A DNA stretch of 64,000 nt from Temperatibacter marinus (lineage in GTDB: Bacteria; Pseudomonadota; Alphaproteobacteria; Sphingomonadales; Kordiimonadaceae): assembly GCF_031598375.1 (NCBI RefSeq), contig NZ_CP123872.1, positions 1,550,001 through 1,614,000 of the forward strand, in the 5' to 3' direction. How positions within the stretch are numbered: the stretch's first letter is position 1; the number at the start of each line of letters is the position of its first letter. A program made the position numbers and the translations under genes. Positions 25,047-35,966 of the stretch are shown piece by piece. The notes beneath the pieces are model-generated. The model did no database searches. It had not been told where the DNA came from and saw only the letters and a program-made list of their open reading frames with translations.

Positions 25047-25505
25047 CTATGTTTTTTGATGGTCTTGAAGAGGCCATTCAACAAGATGGTCTTCAAAATC
25101 ACCAGCCACTCTTTCATCGACCACGCGTCCAATGACACTCATGCCGGCTTCTTTGACGCTATGGTGAGACCCTGAAATCAGAGGATGCCACTCATAAAGT
25201 GATTTCCCTTCAGCTAGTAATCGATAGGCACAGGTGTTGGGCAACCACTTAAAACTATCAATTTTATCTCGAGTGAGGACGGCACAGTTGGCTACAAATC
25301 TTTTCCGGTTCGCATAATTGCTGCACAAAGCCGTTTCTAAGTTTAAAAGACGACAAGCGACATTTGTCACATGGACAGTCCCTGTTTCTTCATCTTCCAT
25401 TTTATGAAGACAGCATTTACCGCATCCATCACAAAGAGATTCCCATTCATCATTGGTCATCTCTTCTAGGGTTTTCTCCTCCCAATATGACGGCGTGCTT
25501 GTCAT
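25047..25505 (-). CDS. YcgN family cysteine-cluster protein (UPF0260)
   Basis: A 152-residue soluble protein with a conserved cysteine cluster: 'CDGCGKCC' at about residues 25-32, 'CRLLN', 'C.NY.NR', 'C' and 'LPNTCAYR', as in UPF0260/YcgN and the YkgJ-type Zn/Fe-chelating families. Exact function unknown; metal binding is inferred. Its ATG (25505) directly abuts the stop codon of the upstream SCO1 gene (TAAATG), indicating translational coupling. Confidence 0.9.
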   Translation of the reverse strand: MTSTPSYWEEKTLEEMTNDEWESLCDGCGKCCLHKMEDEETGTVHVTNVACRLLNLETALCSNYANRKRFVANCAVLTRDKIDSFKWLPNTCAYRLLAEGKSLYEWHPLISGSHHSVKEAGMSVIGRVVDERVAGDFEDHLVEWPLQDHQKT

Positions 25506-26114
25506 TTATTGTTGAACCAGTTGGGTCAAGGTCGTTGCGATTTGCTGCGGCGTATCAATTGCAGTGAATAATTTTAGAAAGGAACCCTCTTTATTCATCA
25601 GGATGATATAATTACTATGGTTCACAAGATAATCATTATTGCCAGTACCGCCTGTTTTTGTGAAGTAGATTTTATATTGGGGTGCAACTTTTTGAATGGT
25701 CTCCAAATCGCTCGTCAATCCAATAAAGTTGGGGTGAAAACCGGGCATGAAGTTGGCGAGTTCAGCAACCGTATCTCGCTCAGGATCTACTGTTATGAAG
25801 AGAGGTTGGATAGCAGATGTGTCAACATTCTTTTCTTCCATCATCTTTAGTGCGGCGGTCATTTTTTGCAATTCTATAGGACAAACATCTGGGCAAAAGC
25901 TATACCCAAAATAAATGAACTGAAATTTTCCCTTGAAGTCCGTATTTTTGACGGTCACTCCTGTATGGGCAGTCAGGGTGTATGAGCCACCAATCGAATC
26001 GCCACTGGAAAGGATTTGCCGCCCACTGTCTTTCTTTTGAGAGAAGACCTGGCCGAGAAGGATTGCTGTGACAAGAATAACGATTGACCAAAGAATATAC
26101 CGGAGGACTTTCAT
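25506..26114 (-). CDS. SCO1/SenC family copper chaperone
   Basis: A 202-residue protein with an N-terminal membrane anchor (residues about 5-24) and a thioredoxin-like periplasmic domain. The copper ligands are CPDVC (CxxxC) in 'YFGYSFCPDVCPIEL' and the distal His in 'VNHSNYII'. SCO1 proteins insert copper in the CuA site of cytochrome c oxidase. No cytochrome oxidase genes are in the window. Upstream is a 126-base gap with its promoter; downstream the YcgN-like gene follows with no gap. Confidence 0.93.
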   Translation of the reverse strand: MKVLRYILWSIVILVTAILLGQVFSQKKDSGRQILSSGDSIGGSYTLTAHTGVTVKNTDFKGKFQFIYFGYSFCPDVCPIELQKMTAALKMMEEKNVDTSAIQPLFITVDPERDTVAELANFMPGFHPNFIGLTSDLETIQKVAPQYKIYFTKTGGTGNNDYLVNHSNYIILMNKEGSFLKLFTAIDTPQQIATTLTQLVQQ

Positions 26115-26240
26115 ATTTTTTACTGACCTTTCATTTAACCTTTGCCTATCTAGACAGGGTGCTTATATACTGTAGGCTAGTGTCATGTCATTAGTTTTAT
26201 GACCCATCAACCGATTGTTATATAGAGCAAGAGTAAATCC

Positions 26241-26789
26241 ATGAAACAGTTTTTAACACCATTCCTATTATTGATTTTTATCACGTCTCCCTCTGTGGCA
26301 ATGCAAAGTAAACAATATGATTTACTCAAGGCGATTGAAGATAAGAACGTAACCGAAGTAAAGAAGCTTTTGAAGGAAGGGGTGTCTCCTAATACACGGA
26401 CATATAGTGAAGGCATTCCGGCACTTATTGTTGCCGCCCGTTCTGGTCACGCAGAAATATTGGAATTACTCTTGAAAAATGGCGCGCGCCCTGACATTGC
26501 GACACGAGATAGACGAGAAACGGCTTTAATGATTAGATCGTTCTCGCGTAATTCGAGGCTTGTTAAAATACTGTTGGATAATAAAGCCGATCCGGACCGT
26601 GTTGATCGATCCAATGAAACGGCCCTAATTAAGGCAGCACGGGCTCGGCAATTTAAAAATGTTCAGCTTCTTATCGAGGCAGGTGCTGATCCTACAATTC
26701 AAGACTTAACTGGCAAATCTGCTCTTGATTATGCTGTGATCAATAGGTCAAGAAGGATTGTAAGCCTACTAGAAAAAGCTGGCGCATAA
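26241..26789 (+). CDS. Exported ankyrin-repeat protein
   Basis: A 182-residue protein with a signal peptide (residues 1-20, cleavage probably after SVA) followed by about four ankyrin repeats (helix-turn-helix units containing 'GIPALIVAARSGHAEILELLLKNG' split over residues 50-73, 'ETALMIRS', 'ETALIKAARARQ', 'KSALDYAV'). It presumably mediates protein-protein contacts in the periplasm. It converges with the degenerate-EAL gene with only 16 bases between stops. Confidence 0.88.
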   Translation: MKQFLTPFLLLIFITSPSVAMQSKQYDLLKAIEDKNVTEVKKLLKEGVSPNTRTYSEGIPALIVAARSGHAEILELLLKNGARPDIATRDRRETALMIRSFSRNSRLVKILLDNKADPDRVDRSNETALIKAARARQFKNVQLLIEAGADPTIQDLTGKSALDYAVINRSRRIVSLLEKAGA

Positions 26790-26805: not shown

Positions 26806-28065
26806 TTAAGGAAGAGCCGTTCCTTGCATTAAGGTAAGCCCACAGGTCCTCCCAAAGGAGATTGCTTTCTGAGAATCACAGCCTGCTAAAATGACTTTTA
26901 CTTTATCAATTGAATTTAAGGCCCAAGTCAGCCGAGCGATCAGTGCCTCATCGTCGAGGGTGACTTCGTCCGCTTCAGTCAGTTGAATCTTATAAAATTC
27001 TACGTCAAACTGACTTAAATTTAGCCAGTCTATGGCCTGAGGGGTTATCCCAGCGAGGCATGTTCGATACCCGTCCGTATGAAGCGTTTTCATCGCTTGC
27101 CTAAACATGTCAGGGTTTTGGATGGCATCTGAAAGATCAAATTCCAAAACAAGCTTGCTCTTTTGCAAACTTCGTACATGCTGACTAAACTCTTTAAACA
27201 TATCGCTTTGCAGGACATCTAGCGAGAGGGTCAAGCTGGATATGATCCCTTTTTCATTAGAGAGATTTGGCTTGTTTTTTAACAGCTGACTTTCTAGCTT
27301 TGCCATTAGATATCGGCTTAAAAAACGATCAGGCGTTGCTTCTAATGAAGGCATCAAGCGCTGAATAGCTTGTGTAAAATTCACTGTATGATTTATCATG
27401 ACAGTCACAGCTTTTTTCCCAGGTAGCGAGGCATAGACTTTTTGTTTCTGCATTAAGCCTTCTAGATCCGTCACTTGAATCGTTTGAACCAATTGATGAA
27501 GGCGTTCAGGGTCTAGAGGCGTGTCTTTTGCCCGGGCACTTGGGGCTTGCACGGGCACCATTTTTAAGCCGGAAGACATGCTTTTCGTCTCTGGCTGTGC
27601 TGTTGGTTTGAGAGGCTTTCGCTTGGTTTGCTCTGCTAGAGTTTCTATAGCTGAGGGCAAGAGCAACTTTCCTGCAATCAACCCCTTCATTTCTGACAGA
27701 AAAAGAGCATAGTCATCGGCCAAATCATACCAAACTGTAAATAGATCGCTCTGTCCCTGAATAGGGTCCAATCCTTGAATGACCTGAGAGTCTTTCATGA
27801 GCATCCGTAAGGAATGAATAGAGGTATCGATACTTTCACTCGGAGCATCTTTCAGAATGAGCAGGCCGTCTTTGTTGGGCAGTAAAAAATACCGGCCTTC
27901 ATAAGTTTGCGTTAAGCCTTTGCACGCTTTCGCCATTTGTTGGCGGTAATGACTTTCATGAAACTGTTTTTCAAGTGCCGAGAGGCGCAACAAAATAGCC
28001 TGGCGACCTTCGGTATGGCGCTTTAGTTGATTGAGATAATCTAATGTTTCTTGTATCATTGGCAT
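26806..28065 (-). CDS. Degenerate EAL-domain-like cytoplasmic protein
   Basis: About 419 residues without signal peptide or TM segment. The C-terminal 200 residues fit an EAL-domain skeleton: 'SSLTLSLDVL', 'KLVLEFDLSDAI' (compare LxxEITE), 'AIDWLNLSQFDVEFYKIQ' (compare LPxDxxKID) and 'GLTLMQGTALP' (compare GxxxxQG). The catalytic signatures are gone: the DDFGTG position reads AGIT and AEGVET reads LAGCDS. No EAL triad is visible. I infer an inactive phosphodiesterase domain acting as a sensor or scaffold. It lies 33 bases or less downstream of the LapG-like protease gene. The frame is also open from a GTG at 28086. Confidence 0.7.
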   Translation of the reverse strand: MPMIQETLDYLNQLKRHTEGRQAILLRLSALEKQFHESHYRQQMAKACKGLTQTYEGRYFLLPNKDGLLILKDAPSESIDTSIHSLRMLMKDSQVIQGLDPIQGQSDLFTVWYDLADDYALFLSEMKGLIAGKLLLPSAIETLAEQTKRKPLKPTAQPETKSMSSGLKMVPVQAPSARAKDTPLDPERLHQLVQTIQVTDLEGLMQKQKVYASLPGKKAVTVMINHTVNFTQAIQRLMPSLEATPDRFLSRYLMAKLESQLLKNKPNLSNEKGIISSLTLSLDVLQSDMFKEFSQHVRSLQKSKLVLEFDLSDAIQNPDMFRQAMKTLHTDGYRTCLAGITPQAIDWLNLSQFDVEFYKIQLTEADEVTLDDEALIARLTWALNSIDKVKVILAGCDSQKAISFGRTCGLTLMQGTALP

Positions 28066-28098
28066 TGTTGTTATCCATACTCCCACATGTCAATGAGA

Positions 28099-28956
28099 TC
28101 AATTAAACCGCCGCTGTCTTAAAAAACGCCACCATGCTTCTTCATTAATGGCATAGACTGGCGTGAAATGGCGGATCTTTGTATGAGGTAACACTTCATT
28201 GACTTGGTTATCAAGGATATAATCTAGACCCTCTATTTTTACAGCTAAGACAGCATGTTCTACACGTGAATTGTTATCTTGCCCGACGAGAAGGCGCATA
28301 TTGCCAGCTTCTAACCCTATTCTTTTAAGGGTGACATATTTACTAATTGCATAGTCTTCACAGTCTCCGTCTTTAAAGAAAAACTCTGTGGGGGTCGCCC
28401 AATAATCTGGCACGCCCCAATTTCTTGGGTCGACGATATAGGGTGTGTTATTCATGAAGAGATTAACCGCATCAAGGACCTCTTTTTTTGATCCCCCAGC
28501 TTTTATTGCTGTAATCTGGTTCGCGATCAGAGTGTTCCACTCATTTTTTCTACAAGCCACTCGATTAAAGCGTGAACAGTCAGTTTGTCCTTTTTTCTCT
28601 GCAAGAGTGCGACCATTAAAACTGTTAGGGAGGCGAATTGTATTGCGCCCCTTTACTGTCGACTTCGTTTTAGCGACGCGAATTTGCTCTTGTGCTGGGA
28701 CATTTTGACGCTCAAGAACATTAAGCCATTTTTTAAAGCCCCCCATTTTTGTATAGCGAAGTTCTCTATAACCAAATAGTCCTGTTGCCTTAGGTTGATC
28801 TGATGAAGGCCGAAAGAAGGATGTTCCTTTTGCTTGCTCAGTTTTGCTCTTGTCTTGGCTATGGGCTAAAAAAGGTGCGCACAGCGTATAAAGGATAACT
28901 GCAAAGAGGATGCCTGCTTTAGGAAGAGACGTATGGGACAATTTTAGCATAGTCAT
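28099..28956 (-). CDS. LapG-like bacterial transglutaminase-like cysteine peptidase (BTLCP)
   Basis: A 285-residue protein with signal peptide (residues about 1-33) and a BTLCP domain. The catalytic triad is visible as Cys199 in 'KDGDCEDYA', His234 in 'RVEHAVLA' and Asp249 in 'YILDNQ'. LapG cleaves the N-terminus of large adhesins in the periplasm and is held inactive by LapD when c-di-GMP is high. No LapA-type adhesin or typical LapD is in the window; the downstream degenerate EAL protein lacks membrane segments. Upstream is the intergenic region shared with the divergent HD-GYP-like gene. Confidence 0.88.
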   Translation of the reverse strand: MTMLKLSHTSLPKAGILFAVILYTLCAPFLAHSQDKSKTEQAKGTSFFRPSSDQPKATGLFGYRELRYTKMGGFKKWLNVLERQNVPAQEQIRVAKTKSTVKGRNTIRLPNSFNGRTLAEKKGQTDCSRFNRVACRKNEWNTLIANQITAIKAGGSKKEVLDAVNLFMNNTPYIVDPRNWGVPDYWATPTEFFFKDGDCEDYAISKYVTLKRIGLEAGNMRLLVGQDNNSRVEHAVLAVKIEGLDYILDNQVNEVLPHTKIRHFTPVYAINEEAWWRFLRQRRFN

Positions 28957-29047
28957 CTAGATGGAAACCTCTTTACGGATCTTAAAACAAAACTCAAGTC
29001 AGTCCTTCATTGATTAGCACGATAATATGTACCATAAAAGAAAGATG

Positions 29048-29059
29048 ATACAATTGTAT
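29048..29059. promoter_or_regulatory. 12-bp perfect palindrome before the HD-GYP-like gene
   Basis: ATACAATTGTAT lies 30 bases upstream of the ATG at 29089 in the divergent intergenic region. AT-rich palindromes of this size can be operators but also arise by chance. Confidence 0.3.
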
Positions 29060-29088
29060 GCAAAATGTGATCCATAAGGGGACATCAA

Positions 29089-31140
29089 ATGTCTGAACAA
29101 TCAAAAGCAATATCAAATCCCATAGGTGGACTGAGGGGTGTGTTTATATCTTTATGCCTAGCTTTAGTTGTTGGATTTTATTTTATCTTCTCTTTTGCTA
29201 ACAGTCAGCGAGATCAAGATATTGATGCATGGTATGATCGTTTAGATTTGGTTGCTGAATCTAGAAGTGTTGTTCTCTCAGCTTGGCTTAATCGCCATTT
29301 AAAAGAGGTTGAGGAAATCTCGCGAAATGCGACATTGGGTCTTTATGCGGGTGAAATTGCCATGGCAGGGGAGAGCGAGCAACGGGGATATACTTTTAAT
29401 TTTCTTAATGCGGCCGCCGCGAGGTCTGGGTTTCACGAGAAAACACCACTCGACCAAATTGCGGCGAATATAAATAGACCGAGACGAGCAGGACTCGGGA
29501 TCTTCAAGGCCGATGCTTCAGCTTTATTGCAGACATCTGGCATGCCCATGATTGAAGCTGAGGATTGGAACGCTGCTGCGATACAGTCCTTTATATCGGT
29601 TCGTGTGATTAATAAATCTCCTGTTCTGATTATAGGGGCTCCTATAAAAGTGATTGATGGAATGGATAGTGGCGGCTCTCCTTTGTGGTTAATCGGCGCG
29701 CGGCACTTAGGAGAAGACTTCTTTTCTTTATTAGAGCAGCCAGGTGACTTTAGCCAGACCGCAGAAAGTTACCTGGTGGTTGCAGGCAATACAGATCGAC
29801 AAATTCGTCCTCTAACCCCTTTAAAGGATGGTGGCCGTATTGGCGATAATTATGATGATAGGGCGGCGGCTTTTGCCTTGAAAAGACCCGGCGCTAGAGG
29901 GCAGTTTCCGAATTACGCCGAGAAAGATGTTCTAGTGACAGGACGCGAGCTTTCAGCACCTGTAGATTGGATTTTAGTCAGGTCCATTACGGCTGAGGAA
30001 GCATTGGCTGACATTAATAGTAGGCGCAATGGACTCATCATAACTCTATCGCTCGCCGTATTTGCTCTCTTAGTAGTGCTTGTAATGGTGTGGCGCCACG
30101 GCGTTTCTTCACGCTTGGAACAGGCATATGGAGCTCAGCGCTTATTAACAGCGGAAAATGAAAAGCTCAGCCATTTCTTGCAACGGGTGAGCGACAGCCA
30201 GCCTGCAGCGGTCGCAGCCATCGATGAAGATAAAAAGATAACTTTTGCCAATGAAAAGTTGGGAGATCTTGTTGACTTGCCTGCTTCAGACCTTGTCGGC
30301 AGGCGCTTTGAAACAGCTTTTAAAGCTGAGGAGGCCGCATTCTTTGAAACTTCATTAATGCAGGCAATGCGAGGGAAGGCTCAGTCTCAAGTTGTGGATC
30401 TTTCAACTGCAGAAAGCATCATGAATATGCAAGTGGATACATTGCCTCTCTCAAGGGATGAAAGTGATGATCAACAAGCTTTGTTGGTTTTACAAGACAT
30501 TACTGATCTGGTTACGGCGCAGAAGACTGCTGAGCAAAATTTGCAACAATTGGTAAAAACCCTCACACAAATTATTGATGCTCGTGACCCGTGGAGCCAA
30601 TATCATTCAGCACGAGTGGCAGAGGTGGCTCCCGTGATTATGGCAGAGATGGGTTTTGATGAGCGCGCCGCAGAAACTGTAAGGACAGCAGGACAGTTGA
30701 TGAATCTTGGTAAGATTTTTGTTCCTCCGGAAATTCTCACTAAAACCACACCTCTGGACGATTCAGAATTGGCATTGGTTCGTGAAAGTATGGATAAAGG
30801 GGCTGATCTACTGAGAGGATTAGAGTTTGGTGGCCCTGTCGAAGCTACTCTGCGCCAAGTCAGAGAGCATTGGGATGGCTCGGGTGCCCCTGAAGGGCTA
30901 TCTGAGGATGGGATTTTGACAGAAGCTCGGGTCTTGGCTGTTGCCAATGCTTTTGTGGGCATGGTTTCATCGCGTGCACATCGAGACGGATTTAGTTTCG
31001 ATAAAGCCTTGGATTTCTTATTGGAAGATTCTGGGAAGAAATATCAGCGCCGGGTTGTAGCGGCGCTTCAAAATGTCATTGAAAATAAAGGCGGACGGCA
31101 AGAGTGGCACCATTATGGGGATCGTGTAAAAGATTTATAG
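29089..31140 (+). CDS. Membrane receptor with degenerate HD-GYP domain
   Basis: A 683-residue protein: TM1 at about 17-37, extracytoplasmic sensor of Cache type (about 40-310), TM2 at about 315-335, PAS-like domain (about 365-475), then an HD-GYP-like domain (about 485-665). Key residues are altered: the HD pair reads Met538-Asn539 ('LMNLGK' instead of LHDIGK), the next ligand His is Asp569, the GYP motif is GAP (599-601) and a later Asp is Asn620 ('VANAF'). His506 and His594 remain. Probably catalytically inactive toward c-di-GMP; a sensing or docking role is inferred. AAGGGG precedes the ATG. Confidence 0.86.
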   Translation: MSEQSKAISNPIGGLRGVFISLCLALVVGFYFIFSFANSQRDQDIDAWYDRLDLVAESRSVVLSAWLNRHLKEVEEISRNATLGLYAGEIAMAGESEQRGYTFNFLNAAAARSGFHEKTPLDQIAANINRPRRAGLGIFKADASALLQTSGMPMIEAEDWNAAAIQSFISVRVINKSPVLIIGAPIKVIDGMDSGGSPLWLIGARHLGEDFFSLLEQPGDFSQTAESYLVVAGNTDRQIRPLTPLKDGGRIGDNYDDRAAAFALKRPGARGQFPNYAEKDVLVTGRELSAPVDWILVRSITAEEALADINSRRNGLIITLSLAVFALLVVLVMVWRHGVSSRLEQAYGAQRLLTAENEKLSHFLQRVSDSQPAAVAAIDEDKKITFANEKLGDLVDLPASDLVGRRFETAFKAEEAAFFETSLMQAMRGKAQSQVVDLSTAESIMNMQVDTLPLSRDESDDQQALLVLQDITDLVTAQKTAEQNLQQLVKTLTQIIDARDPWSQYHSARVAEVAPVIMAEMGFDERAAETVRTAGQLMNLGKIFVPPEILTKTTPLDDSELALVRESMDKGADLLRGLEFGGPVEATLRQVREHWDGSGAPEGLSEDGILTEARVLAVANAFVGMVSSRAHRDGFSFDKALDFLLEDSGKKYQRRVVAALQNVIENKGGRQEWHHYGDRVKDL

Positions 31141-31165
31141 GATCTGCAGAATTGGATTTGACTCG

Positions 31166-31543
31166 TTAGGATGCTGCAGCTGTTTTTTCGCGCATGCGCG
31201 CGACTATGGCCTGTCCTTTTTCTCCGCCATCCCCAGAAATACGGTGCTCAATAATGAGATTGAAAACCTTGCAATAGTCAGCCAGTAAATTCGCATCGGC
31301 ATCCGATTTTGTCTTTAATTCTTTGATGTATTTACAGCAATCCGCACCGATCTCTGTTAAGAGATTGTATCCAAAGGTCATGCCCATGCCCTTTAGATTA
31401 TGGGCGACACCATAAAAGCCTTCGACTTGATCCTCTGGCACGGATTCAGCCTTCATAATCGCTTCAGTATGAGATTTTAAATCTGCTGCAGATCCATCTA
31501 AATAATCTAGAAACTGCTGCAGCATTTCATCGTCGAATTCCAT
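31166..31543 (-). CDS. HPt (histidine phosphotransfer) domain protein
   Basis: A 125-residue single-domain protein with the phosphorylatable histidine in 'GVAHNLKGMGMTFGY' (H-N-x-K-G), about residue 66. It resembles stand-alone HPt proteins that relay phosphoryl groups. It lies convergent to the degenerate HD-GYP gene, 25 bases away. No histidine kinase or receiver is nearby. AAAGGG precedes the ATG. Confidence 0.85.
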   Translation of the reverse strand: MEFDDEMLQQFLDYLDGSAADLKSHTEAIMKAESVPEDQVEGFYGVAHNLKGMGMTFGYNLLTEIGADCCKYIKELKTKSDADANLLADYCKVFNLIIEHRISGDGGEKGQAIVARMREKTAAAS

Positions 31544-34844: not shown

Positions 34845-35966
34845 CTAGTCTAATTTTCCTCCTGGGACGAGAAAATATCGGCTATACCAATACCACCGTT
34901 TATTGCCAGCCAATAAAGTACAGTTTAACCGACTGCGTCCTTTGGGAAGTGGCTTTTCGAATCTTATCTCATAGCGCGAATTTGTTGGTTTAAGAATGGT
35001 TGCTGTTTCACCGCCTAAATGGCTAGGAAAGCAGGTCATGGCTGCCGCATCAATGTCTTTCTCTAGAGTGAAGCCGATCATCGGCGGGTTTTGCGCTGGG
35101 TTCTCGATGTATGGATCTTCAGGTGTCACGGCAGAAACTGGGAGGGCGATTGACCGAGAGATCAGTTGAAAGCGGCCAATTTTTCCATACCGCTCGTTAA
35201 CAGCAAAGCGGGGTAAACTCATCAAATCTGAATTCAAGCCAGCAGCCCCTGAATATTGGGCAAAGGCAAGGTCAAATCCTTTTGTTGCAACCATATTGCG
35301 GATATCTTTGCTGTATTCACCGTAGGGATATGCAAATGCTTTGGGAACAAAGCCCAATTCTTCCATAAATCTTTTACTGGCTTTATCTAGATCTTTTTCG
35401 GCTGCTTCAATGCCGCGATGCACCATATGCATGTGAGCTGCCCCGTGGTGCGCTATGGCTACACCCTCCTGCATGAGAAAACGAATATCATCCCATGACA
35501 TATAGCCGGGAATTTTTTGATCGATAATGTCAGTTGAAACAAAGAGAGCGAGTGGGATGCCTGCAGCCTTTAGCCTTGGCCACGCTTCTGTTAGGACGGA
35601 TTTATAAGCGTCGTCAACTGTAAAAAGCACGCTTTTATGCGGGAAGGGCTTGTCTGCGGTCATATGATGAATGAACTGCTCTAAGCTTAAAAAATTGAAG
35701 GGTTCAGATTGAAGGAAGGCAATTTGCGCCTCTATTTGCTCAAGGCGTGTATTTGTTGATGGATATTTATCTTCCCCAAAACGGTGATAAACATAAACAA
35801 CTGCCGAGCGATCTTCCAGTCCCGTGACTTGGGCAGTGACTTGGGCAGTGTCTTGGGCAGTGTCTTGGGCACTGACCTGGGCAATGACTCTGAGGGATAG
35901 GGCAAAATGACAGAGGCACAAAAGGCCTATCATGACGAAAGTAACGGGTGAGAAGGATGTCTTCAC
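34845..35966 (-). CDS. Polysaccharide deacetylase family protein (exported)
   Basis: A 373-residue protein with signal peptide (residues about 1-30) and a carbohydrate esterase 4 (NodB-like) domain: 'VLFTVDDAYKSVLTEAWP' (TxDDxY/F, metal Asp pair), 'AHHGAAHMHM' (H-x-x-x-H variant), 'FAYPYGEYSKD' (R/YPYG). It removes acetyl groups from peptidoglycan or another polysaccharide in the periplasm. After the signal peptide is an AQVT/AQDT linker encoded by five 12-bp repeats. GTG start at 35966. Located between nfu and a RutE-like gene; role in the cluster unclear. Confidence 0.88.
   Translation of the reverse strand: MKTSFSPVTFVMIGLLCLCHFALSLRVIAQVSAQDTAQDTAQVTAQVTGLEDRSAVVYVYHRFGEDKYPSTNTRLEQIEAQIAFLQSEPFNFLSLEQFIHHMTADKPFPHKSVLFTVDDAYKSVLTEAWPRLKAAGIPLALFVSTDIIDQKIPGYMSWDDIRFLMQEGVAIAHHGAAHMHMVHRGIEAAEKDLDKASKRFMEELGFVPKAFAYPYGEYSKDIRNMVATKGFDLAFAQYSGAAGLNSDLMSLPRFAVNERYGKIGRFQLISRSIALPVSAVTPEDPYIENPAQNPPMIGFTLEKDIDAAAMTCFPSHLGGETATILKPTNSRYEIRFEKPLPKGRSRLNCTLLAGNKRWYWYSRYFLVPGGKLD
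35824..35883. repeat. Five tandem 12-bp repeats inside the deacetylase gene
   Basis: Units gtgacttgggca, gtgacttgggca, gtgtcttgggca, gtgtcttgggca and ctgacctgggca run head to tail and encode AQVT/AQDT repeats on the minus strand, just after the signal peptide. Being a multiple of three, copy-number change would keep the frame. Confidence 0.92.

Follow-up and report, generated by a model that had tools for sequence, protein, structure and literature searches.

In a 64,000-nt stretch of the contig NZ_CP123872.1 from Temperatibacter marinus (in the following termed the window; all coordinates are positions within it), genes encoding a LapG-like protease, a membrane receptor with a degenerate HD-GYP domain, a degenerate EAL-like protein and a stand-alone histidine phosphotransfer (HPt) protein lie next to each other, raising the question of which of them act together and how the protease is controlled. 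The original prediction for this locus had proposed a variant system in which a soluble dead EAL protein and a dead HD-GYP receptor sense cyclic di-GMP (c-di-GMP) or relay phosphorylation to control proteolysis. Genome comparisons, profile searches and structure models point to the protease (28099-28956, minus strand) and the receptor (29089-31140, plus strand), which form a divergent pair, as the most likely functional unit. The pair is considered likely to represent the two-gene core of an inside-out switch resembling DvhD/DvhG, in which low c-di-GMP would lead to cleavage of a target other than a recognizable LapA-type adhesin, with the EAL-like and HPt genes as neighbors.

Linkage of a dead HD-GYP receptor and a LapG-like protease

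The distribution of the genes was recorded for an order-level comparison set of 59 genomes and for a class-level set of 289 sampled Alphaproteobacteria genomes (genomes and loci are cited by the handles G and L where they have to be told apart); the host genome consists of one contig of 3.18 Mb. Within the order-level set, the receptor was found in 41 genomes, a protease of the Peptidase_C93 (C93) family in 45 and neither of them in 14. In all 41 receptor-bearing genomes, the receptor gene divergently adjoins the protease gene (Fisher p 2e-10; this and the further Fisher test on gene co-occurrence ignore kinship among the genomes). The raw search had matched the receptor model in 45/59 genomes; G029, G036, G045 and G046, whose sole matches were short HD-GYP-only stretches, were left out, as were secondary HD-GYP-only matches in other genomes and a sub-cut-off C93 match in G033. 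Receptors located at contig ends in G006 and G040 were counted as fragments. Moreover, of the 24 named loci retrieved with the protease, 23 contain the divergent pair, the exception being Rhodospira (L054), and 24 of 29 receptor loci recorded class-wide possess a divergent protease gene. The receptor model matched 44 of the 289 class-level genomes, counting matches over E 1e-70, some of them partial, and including the window's own genome. In G033, G052 and G058, the pair lies outside the syntenic block described below and has no adjoining EAL gene. This genomic linkage is the strongest evidence in the case, though it is imperfect from the protease side.

The protease comprises 285 amino acids and belongs to the bacterial transglutaminase-like cysteine proteinases (BTLCP). 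It matched Pfam Peptidase_C93 with 65.7 bits (cut-off 27) and is the sole C93 match in the host genome. Its score against the NCBIfam LapG model was 83.5, far under the cut-off of 320, and the protein is therefore regarded as a LapG relative and not as a LapG equivalog. The catalytic residues Cys199 (codon 28360-28362), His234 (28255-28257) and Asp249 (28210-28212; all on the minus strand) are invariant in 21/21 aligned protease sequences including that of the window, which bears out the LapG-type protease with an intact Cys-His-Asp triad initially proposed. A hydrophobic N-terminal segment acting as predicted export signal is encoded at 28858-28956, so that the protein combines an intact triad with export, as expected for the protease of a DvhDG-type pair. 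Two solved relatives were found, 4u65 and 4fgo, which we take to be LapG structures. Ahead of the core, a conserved LFG..E...F.KW stretch was observed (residues 60-77; L60, F61, E65, F74, K76 and W77 invariant in 21/21), which may represent a family-specific contact surface.

Two segments of the receptor (683 amino acids) are hydrophobic, at residues 10-40 and 312-341, and are assigned to its first and second transmembrane helices. They enclose a periplasmic dCache-like domain (residues 46-309, 29224-30015, plus strand), and the second is followed by a PAS and a degenerate HD-GYP domain, the latter at 30541-31098 on the plus strand. Matches to PAS_4 and HD_5 were obtained, and the Pfam search returned no LapD_MoxY_N, GGDEF or EAL match in this protein. 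The HD pair is replaced by MN (30700-30705) and GYP by GAP, in agreement with the early description of a membrane receptor that has lost both motifs. The HD pair is absent in 21/21 aligned receptors including that of the window, reading [MVL]N with N at the second position in 20 sequences and an undetermined X in one, and it is [ML]N in 29/29 more distant receptors. The loss of GYP is stated for the 21 aligned rows, the GYP column being gapped in 28 of the 29 added distant rows as an effect of fitting them to a fixed alignment. Since the HD pair is lost in all aligned receptors, they constitute a family of dead HD-GYP receptors and do not reflect the decay of a gene in a single genome. The metal ligands of the HD-GYP domain are lost throughout this family, as in DvhD.

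DvhD of Desulfovibrio vulgaris is, according to the accessible part of PMC13090378, a receptor for c-di-GMP that combines a periplasmic dCache domain with a catalytically dead PAS/HD-GYP part and controls the protease DvhG. DvhDG has been studied in a Pseudomonas fluorescens laboratory strain devoid of LapD and LapG, and models of DvhD assign protease contact to helix alpha1'. The best PDB sequence match of the window receptor was the PAS/HD-GYP fragment of DvhD (E 2.5e-36, receptor residues 361-670), followed by the DvhD HD-GYP domain (4.4e-31) and by HD-GYP phosphodiesterases (9.7e-19 and weaker). An AlphaFold model calculated from 19 sequences (mean predicted local distance difference test, pLDDT, 82.6; predicted template modeling score, pTM, 0.47) likewise retrieved DvhD as first fold match (Foldseek E 1.6e-14; Z 24.5, root-mean-square deviation, rmsd, 4.8 over 294 residues). 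The periplasmic part of the model superimposed on the corresponding DvhD domain 9rc2 with Z 16.7 and rmsd 3.5 over 235 residues. The receptor accordingly shows the DvhD arrangement of a cytoplasmic PAS-HD-GYP part and a periplasmic domain that is of the dCache type in the predicted model. DvhD is its closest solved relative in both sequence and fold, which makes a DvhDG-like mode of action the most likely one for the pair. The parts of this interpretation that the data show are the linkage of the two genes, the intact triad of the protease, the loss of the metal ligands from the HD-GYP domain and the architecture common to the receptor and DvhD.

Following the DvhDG example, the dead HD-GYP domain of the receptor would bind c-di-GMP. 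Binding would shift the packing of the PAS and stalk helices, as seen for DvhD, and this shift would reach the dCache domain across the membrane. The dCache domain may hold or free the exported LapG-like protease. At low c-di-GMP, the protease would then cut a protein of the surface or the periplasm, probably one other than a recognizable LapA-type adhesin. The EAL-like and HPt genes would be conserved neighbors with a role of their own. Control of a LapG-like protease by a dead HD-GYP receptor, as assumed in the original prediction, is well supported by the linkage and by DvhD as best PDB match; membership of the EAL-like and HPt proteins in the same system is doubtful.

Several observations weigh against a DvhDG-type switch. 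On the genomic side, 4/45 protease-bearing genomes lack a scored receptor (G042, G046, G057 and G030). In G042 (L112:7795-8517) and G046 (L113:6897-7589), the protease gene adjoins an EAL gene while a receptor is missing, which inverts the usual combination, and G057 possesses only a distant C93 protein, encoded near a type I exporter. In G030, the start of a receptor is located at a contig end; the search missed this fragment because of its shortness, and the 41 counted receptors do not include it. Class-wide, 5/29 receptor loci (L118, L119, L123, L142 and L144) have no protease within approximately 1.5 kb, and these receptor genes are either unpaired or have other partners. On the structural side, the dCache match to DvhD is tied with unrelated dCache receptors, namely amino-acid chemoreceptors (Z 16). 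Finally, c-di-GMP contacts are partly lost. Among the 11 DvhD residues reported to contact c-di-GMP in the accessible part of PMC13090378, four are identical in the window receptor (Leu577, Met646, Arg650 and Pro567; DvhD numbering) and three are conservatively replaced (E668D, Y523W and K520R), but Arg569 and the phosphate-holding Tyr621 and Lys582 are lost and Tyr652 is replaced by His. These losses imply that the ligand of the receptor could be weaker, different or absent.

The loss of Tyr621 and Lys582 favors a reading in which a ligand of the dCache domain, and not c-di-GMP, sets protease activity, with the HD-GYP domain serving as a dimerizing scaffold. It would also agree with the small ligands that dCache domains typically bind and with the model fitting amino-acid chemoreceptors nearly as well as DvhD. 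However, Arg650 and Leu577 of the nucleotide site and Pro567 of the bridging site are invariant in 21/21 receptors despite the lost metal site, and a purely periplasmic sensor is thus regarded as unlikely. Lys520 is replaced by Arg in 21/21 receptors. Judged from these residues, c-di-GMP binding by the receptor is plausible, and the c-di-GMP-dependent switch is kept as the preferred interpretation.

The intergenic region between the two genes (28957-29088) is presumed to harbor a bidirectional promoter. CtrA-type sites near the genes gave no signal in the window (52 found vs. 47 expected), and no regulator site is indicated for the intergenic region.

Conserved neighbors of the pair

Directly downstream of the protease gene, the window encodes a soluble degenerate EAL-like protein of 426 amino acids (26806-28086, minus strand). 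Its C-terminal half (residues 190-425, 26812-27519, minus strand) carries neither DDFGTG nor EG[VI]E, as had been noticed at the outset; the window protein has lost the DDFG and EG[VI]E residues, which vary across its family. The possibility that the protein is unrelated to EAL had been named as a refutation of the module, and the results speak for EAL descent. The protein matched Pfam EAL with 32.8 bits (cut-off 31.3), 27 of 33 family sequences have an EAL match, and profile-profile comparison with the eight EAL domains of the host genome yielded 96.7% probability (E 4e-10). The structure model (mean pLDDT 79.4, pTM 0.53) reached Z values of approximately 15 against the EAL domains of FimX and LapD in a VIA-align comparison that covered mainly residues 184-423. 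The 33 EAL-like sequences retain the first E of ExTE in 29 cases and the K as well as the Q of QG in 31 cases each. When the protein was searched against the PDB by sequence, nothing matched at E values up to 10. Pfam, profile comparison and fold all identify the C-terminal half as a true EAL domain.

Furthermore, the protein possesses an N-terminal domain of approximately 125 residues that the original prediction did not mention (residues 14-137, 27676-28047, minus strand). In the model, its elements follow the order beta-alpha-alpha-beta-beta-alpha-beta-alpha, which is the GGDEF topology, and GGDEF-EAL tandems rank first in a Foldseek search with the whole model, LapD being within the top six. 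Profile comparison is unsupportive of a GGDEF assignment, with 2% probability against nine GGDEF domains of the host genome and Pfam GGDEF matches in 0/33 sequences. Three named loci (L033:10674-11093, L035:10672-11091 and L036:10674-11093) encode this domain alone (139 amino acids) at the same neighborhood position and have no EAL half.

The stand-alone HPt gene that had been reported for the locus is present at 31166-31543 on the minus strand. Its phospho-acceptor His48 (31400-31402) is invariant in 13/13 sequences, the window protein scoring 20.7 against Pfam, under the cut-off of 24.6; four relatives scored 30.9, 25.3, 24.5 and 14.9. Beyond gene adjacency, nothing was found in favor of the phosphorelay that had been suggested for this gene, and it is assigned to an older syntenic block and not to the pair. 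Comparison of the loci indicates that the ancestral gene order of this block was probably HPt-MmcB-[receptor/protease]-EAL-RegA-RegB-Ank-SCO, where RegA and RegB are our presumptive labels for the response regulator and the histidine kinase seen in the block. In the window, genes encoding SCO1/SenC-like, CxxCxxCC and ankyrin-repeat (Ank) proteins occupy 25047-26789, and many relatives show these genes and the EAL-like gene in the same order. In relatives, a RegA/RegB-like two-component pair is often located between the EAL-like and the SCO/ankyrin genes; it is absent at that place in the window.

These neighbors raise the possibility of a four-gene module, in which the soluble dead EAL protein would bind c-di-GMP and dock on the cytoplasmic side of the receptor, with HPt also controlling the protease. 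Since the EAL-like protein contains no hydrophobic export or membrane segment, it should not directly meet the exported protease, and any link would run via the cytoplasmic part of the receptor. Such a module would account for the EAL gene directly following the protease gene on the same strand in 37/39 genomes holding both, for its retained fold and some retained pocket residues, and for its higher frequency with the protease (39/45) than without it (7/14; Fisher p 0.008, uncorrected for kinship). It would also fit G042 and G046, in which protease and EAL genes are kept after loss of the receptor. This enrichment and the persistence of the EAL gene beside receptor-less proteases count against treating it purely as a neighbor, and a functional link may exist.

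However, seven genomes that lack a C93 protease have the EAL gene as well (G005, G029, G036, G039, G045, G050 and G056). Six of them keep it within the block, next to RegA/RegB-like or Ank-SCO genes; around the gene of G029, no block gene was seen. Conversely, the pair lacks an adjoining EAL gene in 7/41 receptor genomes, among them G001, G012 and G013, where it lies inside the block and EAL is missing. Outside the order, EAL adjoins the LapG-like gene in only 4/24 divergent pairs within the short flank examined, and the three named loci mentioned above have lost the EAL half altogether. The HPt gene, too, is found in three pair-less loci (G005, G036 and G056). The retention of EAL and HPt where the pair is missing and of the pair without EAL is best explained by long-standing neighborhood. 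Conservation of the four-gene neighborhood, which had been suggested as a check, gives a divided result: receptor and protease are conserved as a unit, and EAL and HPt keep their place even in genomes that lack the pair. The EAL-like gene, once thought to be part of the switch, is probably only a neighbor, and the four-gene module appears rather unlikely.

Putative substrate of the protease

Lap and Dvh systems cut large retention-module adhesins that are exported by a type I system. Genome-wide profile searches for adhesins and exporters, run on the 59 order genomes beside 14 control genomes, were used to look for this substrate class, and their outcome adds to the points that weigh against a switch of the DvhDG kind. 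The LapA retention module NF033682 had no match in the host genome. It was over cut-off in 0/59 order genomes, with one weak sub-cut-off match in G046, but 0/14 control genomes passed as well (Caulobacter below cut-off), so that the sensitivity of the model is unproven and a divergent domain could escape it. The LapB-type exporter TIGR03375 was over cut-off in 5/59 genomes (G030, G046, G051, G052 and G057) and had no match over cut-off in the host genome (best 327.6 vs. 693.1). Only matches over cut-off were counted for this model, the lower ones being general ABC exporters present in 14/14 control genomes. With neither a LapA module match nor a LapB-type exporter over cut-off in the host genome, the known substrate class is missing. 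LapD_MoxY_N was found in 0/59 genomes, but no control genome matched either, so that this result says nothing about absence.

RTX proteins of up to 3491 amino acids are encoded elsewhere in the host genome. The gene of the largest, an RTX-repeat protein, is located at C1 ~1667378-1677853 (L091:3379-13854), approximately 53 kb past the window; no evidence links this protein to the pair. As candidate substrates, RTX proteins were rejected: the motif [TPQ]AAG occurs once each in the proteins of 3491 and 1894 amino acids, which is compatible with chance by a rough estimate, and none is named as substrate.

The missing adhesin, with no LapA-type protein over cut-off in the order, would fit a protease that regulates the capsule or another envelope process in the manner of HvyA instead of releasing an adhesin. 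HvyA is an alphaproteobacterial BTLCP that blocks capsulation in Caulobacter, as stated in the accessible part of PMC4241560. In the window, the gene at 34845-35966 resembles a polysaccharide deacetylase by eye. However, HvyA sits in a capsule-export locus, and visual inspection of the open frames at 22-44 kb revealed none. Moreover, the pair of G052 adjoins a type I exporter of the LapB/HlyD type. An HvyA-like function is possible but on the doubtful side; it concerns the substrate and is compatible with a DvhDG-type switch.

Beside the intact pair of G052, a second HD-GYP receptor, a LapG-like protein with the catalytic Cys changed to Gly (L108:12960-13637), an HlyD-type adaptor and a LapB-type exporter are encoded; this exporter next to the pair is a genomic hint in favor of a DvhDG-type switch. 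The Cys-to-Gly protein is possibly a dead protease paralogue acting as decoy or adaptor.

Comparison with known systems

The DvhDG mechanism became known in 2026 from sulfate reducers; the accessible part of that paper (PMC13090378) speaks of Desulfovibrionales. A description of the receptor-protease pair in Alphaproteobacteria was not found among the papers listed by the literature searches, which covered titles and the openings of abstracts outside subscription papers and preprints. Likewise, the accessible part of a c-di-GMP census of five orders (PMC9756655) contains no mention of LapD or 'degenerate'. As far as these listed papers show, novelty lies in the regular presence of the pair in Alphaproteobacteria, in its stand-alone arrangement with divergent genes and in the lack of the known substrate, the kind of system itself being known since 2026. 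Part of the alphaproteobacterial spread may already be contained in the class-level figure 9b of PMC13090378.

If the alphaproteobacterial pair works like DvhDG, such control of periplasmic proteolysis would be far more widespread (44/289 class genomes). The BTLCP proteases of Alphaproteobacteria, a group with few established regulators and targets, would gain a partner amenable to testing, and attention would turn to what they cleave in genomes in which no LapA-type adhesin is found. More speculatively, and with doubt prevailing, many Alphaproteobacteria could possess an inside-out protease switch in which a dead HD-GYP receptor responds to c-di-GMP and the target is a surface structure other than a LapA-type adhesin; one order would have added a cytosolic dead GGDEF/EAL-like partner tuning this receptor.

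The known systems resemble the locus to different degrees. GGDEF-EAL tandems of the FimX and LapD type are the best structural matches of the EAL-like model, whereas the GGDEF part of the EAL-like protein is unrecognizable by sequence. HvyA of Caulobacter shares with the window protease that it is an exported alphaproteobacterial BTLCP, but it differs in its capsule-locus setting and, according to the accessible part of PMC4241560, is controlled mainly by transcription, translation and instability and not by a c-di-GMP receptor.

LapD/LapG of Pseudomonas fluorescens has in common with the window pair a BTLCP protease with a C-H-D triad and an invariant D-C-E motif, to which we presume a role in calcium binding, and a receptor whose c-di-GMP domains are dead. 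In contrast to LapD, the window receptor shows no LapD_MoxY_N, GGDEF or EAL match, and the protease scores far under the LapG equivalog cut-off. Since adhesin and exporter were searched for and not found, the pair is not placed in a full Lap or Dvh adhesin system.

Compared with DvhD/DvhG (PDB 9rc0, 9rbz and 9rc2), the window pair belongs to a different bacterial class and forms a divergent two-gene unit that is not flanked by genes for an adhesin or a type I exporter, and the NF033682 search found no retention-module adhesin in the host genome. Several c-di-GMP contacts are changed, and the periplasmic domain is alike in fold only. Shared between both are the dCache-PAS-HD-GYP order, the loss of the metal ligands and a BTLCP protease encoded nearby.

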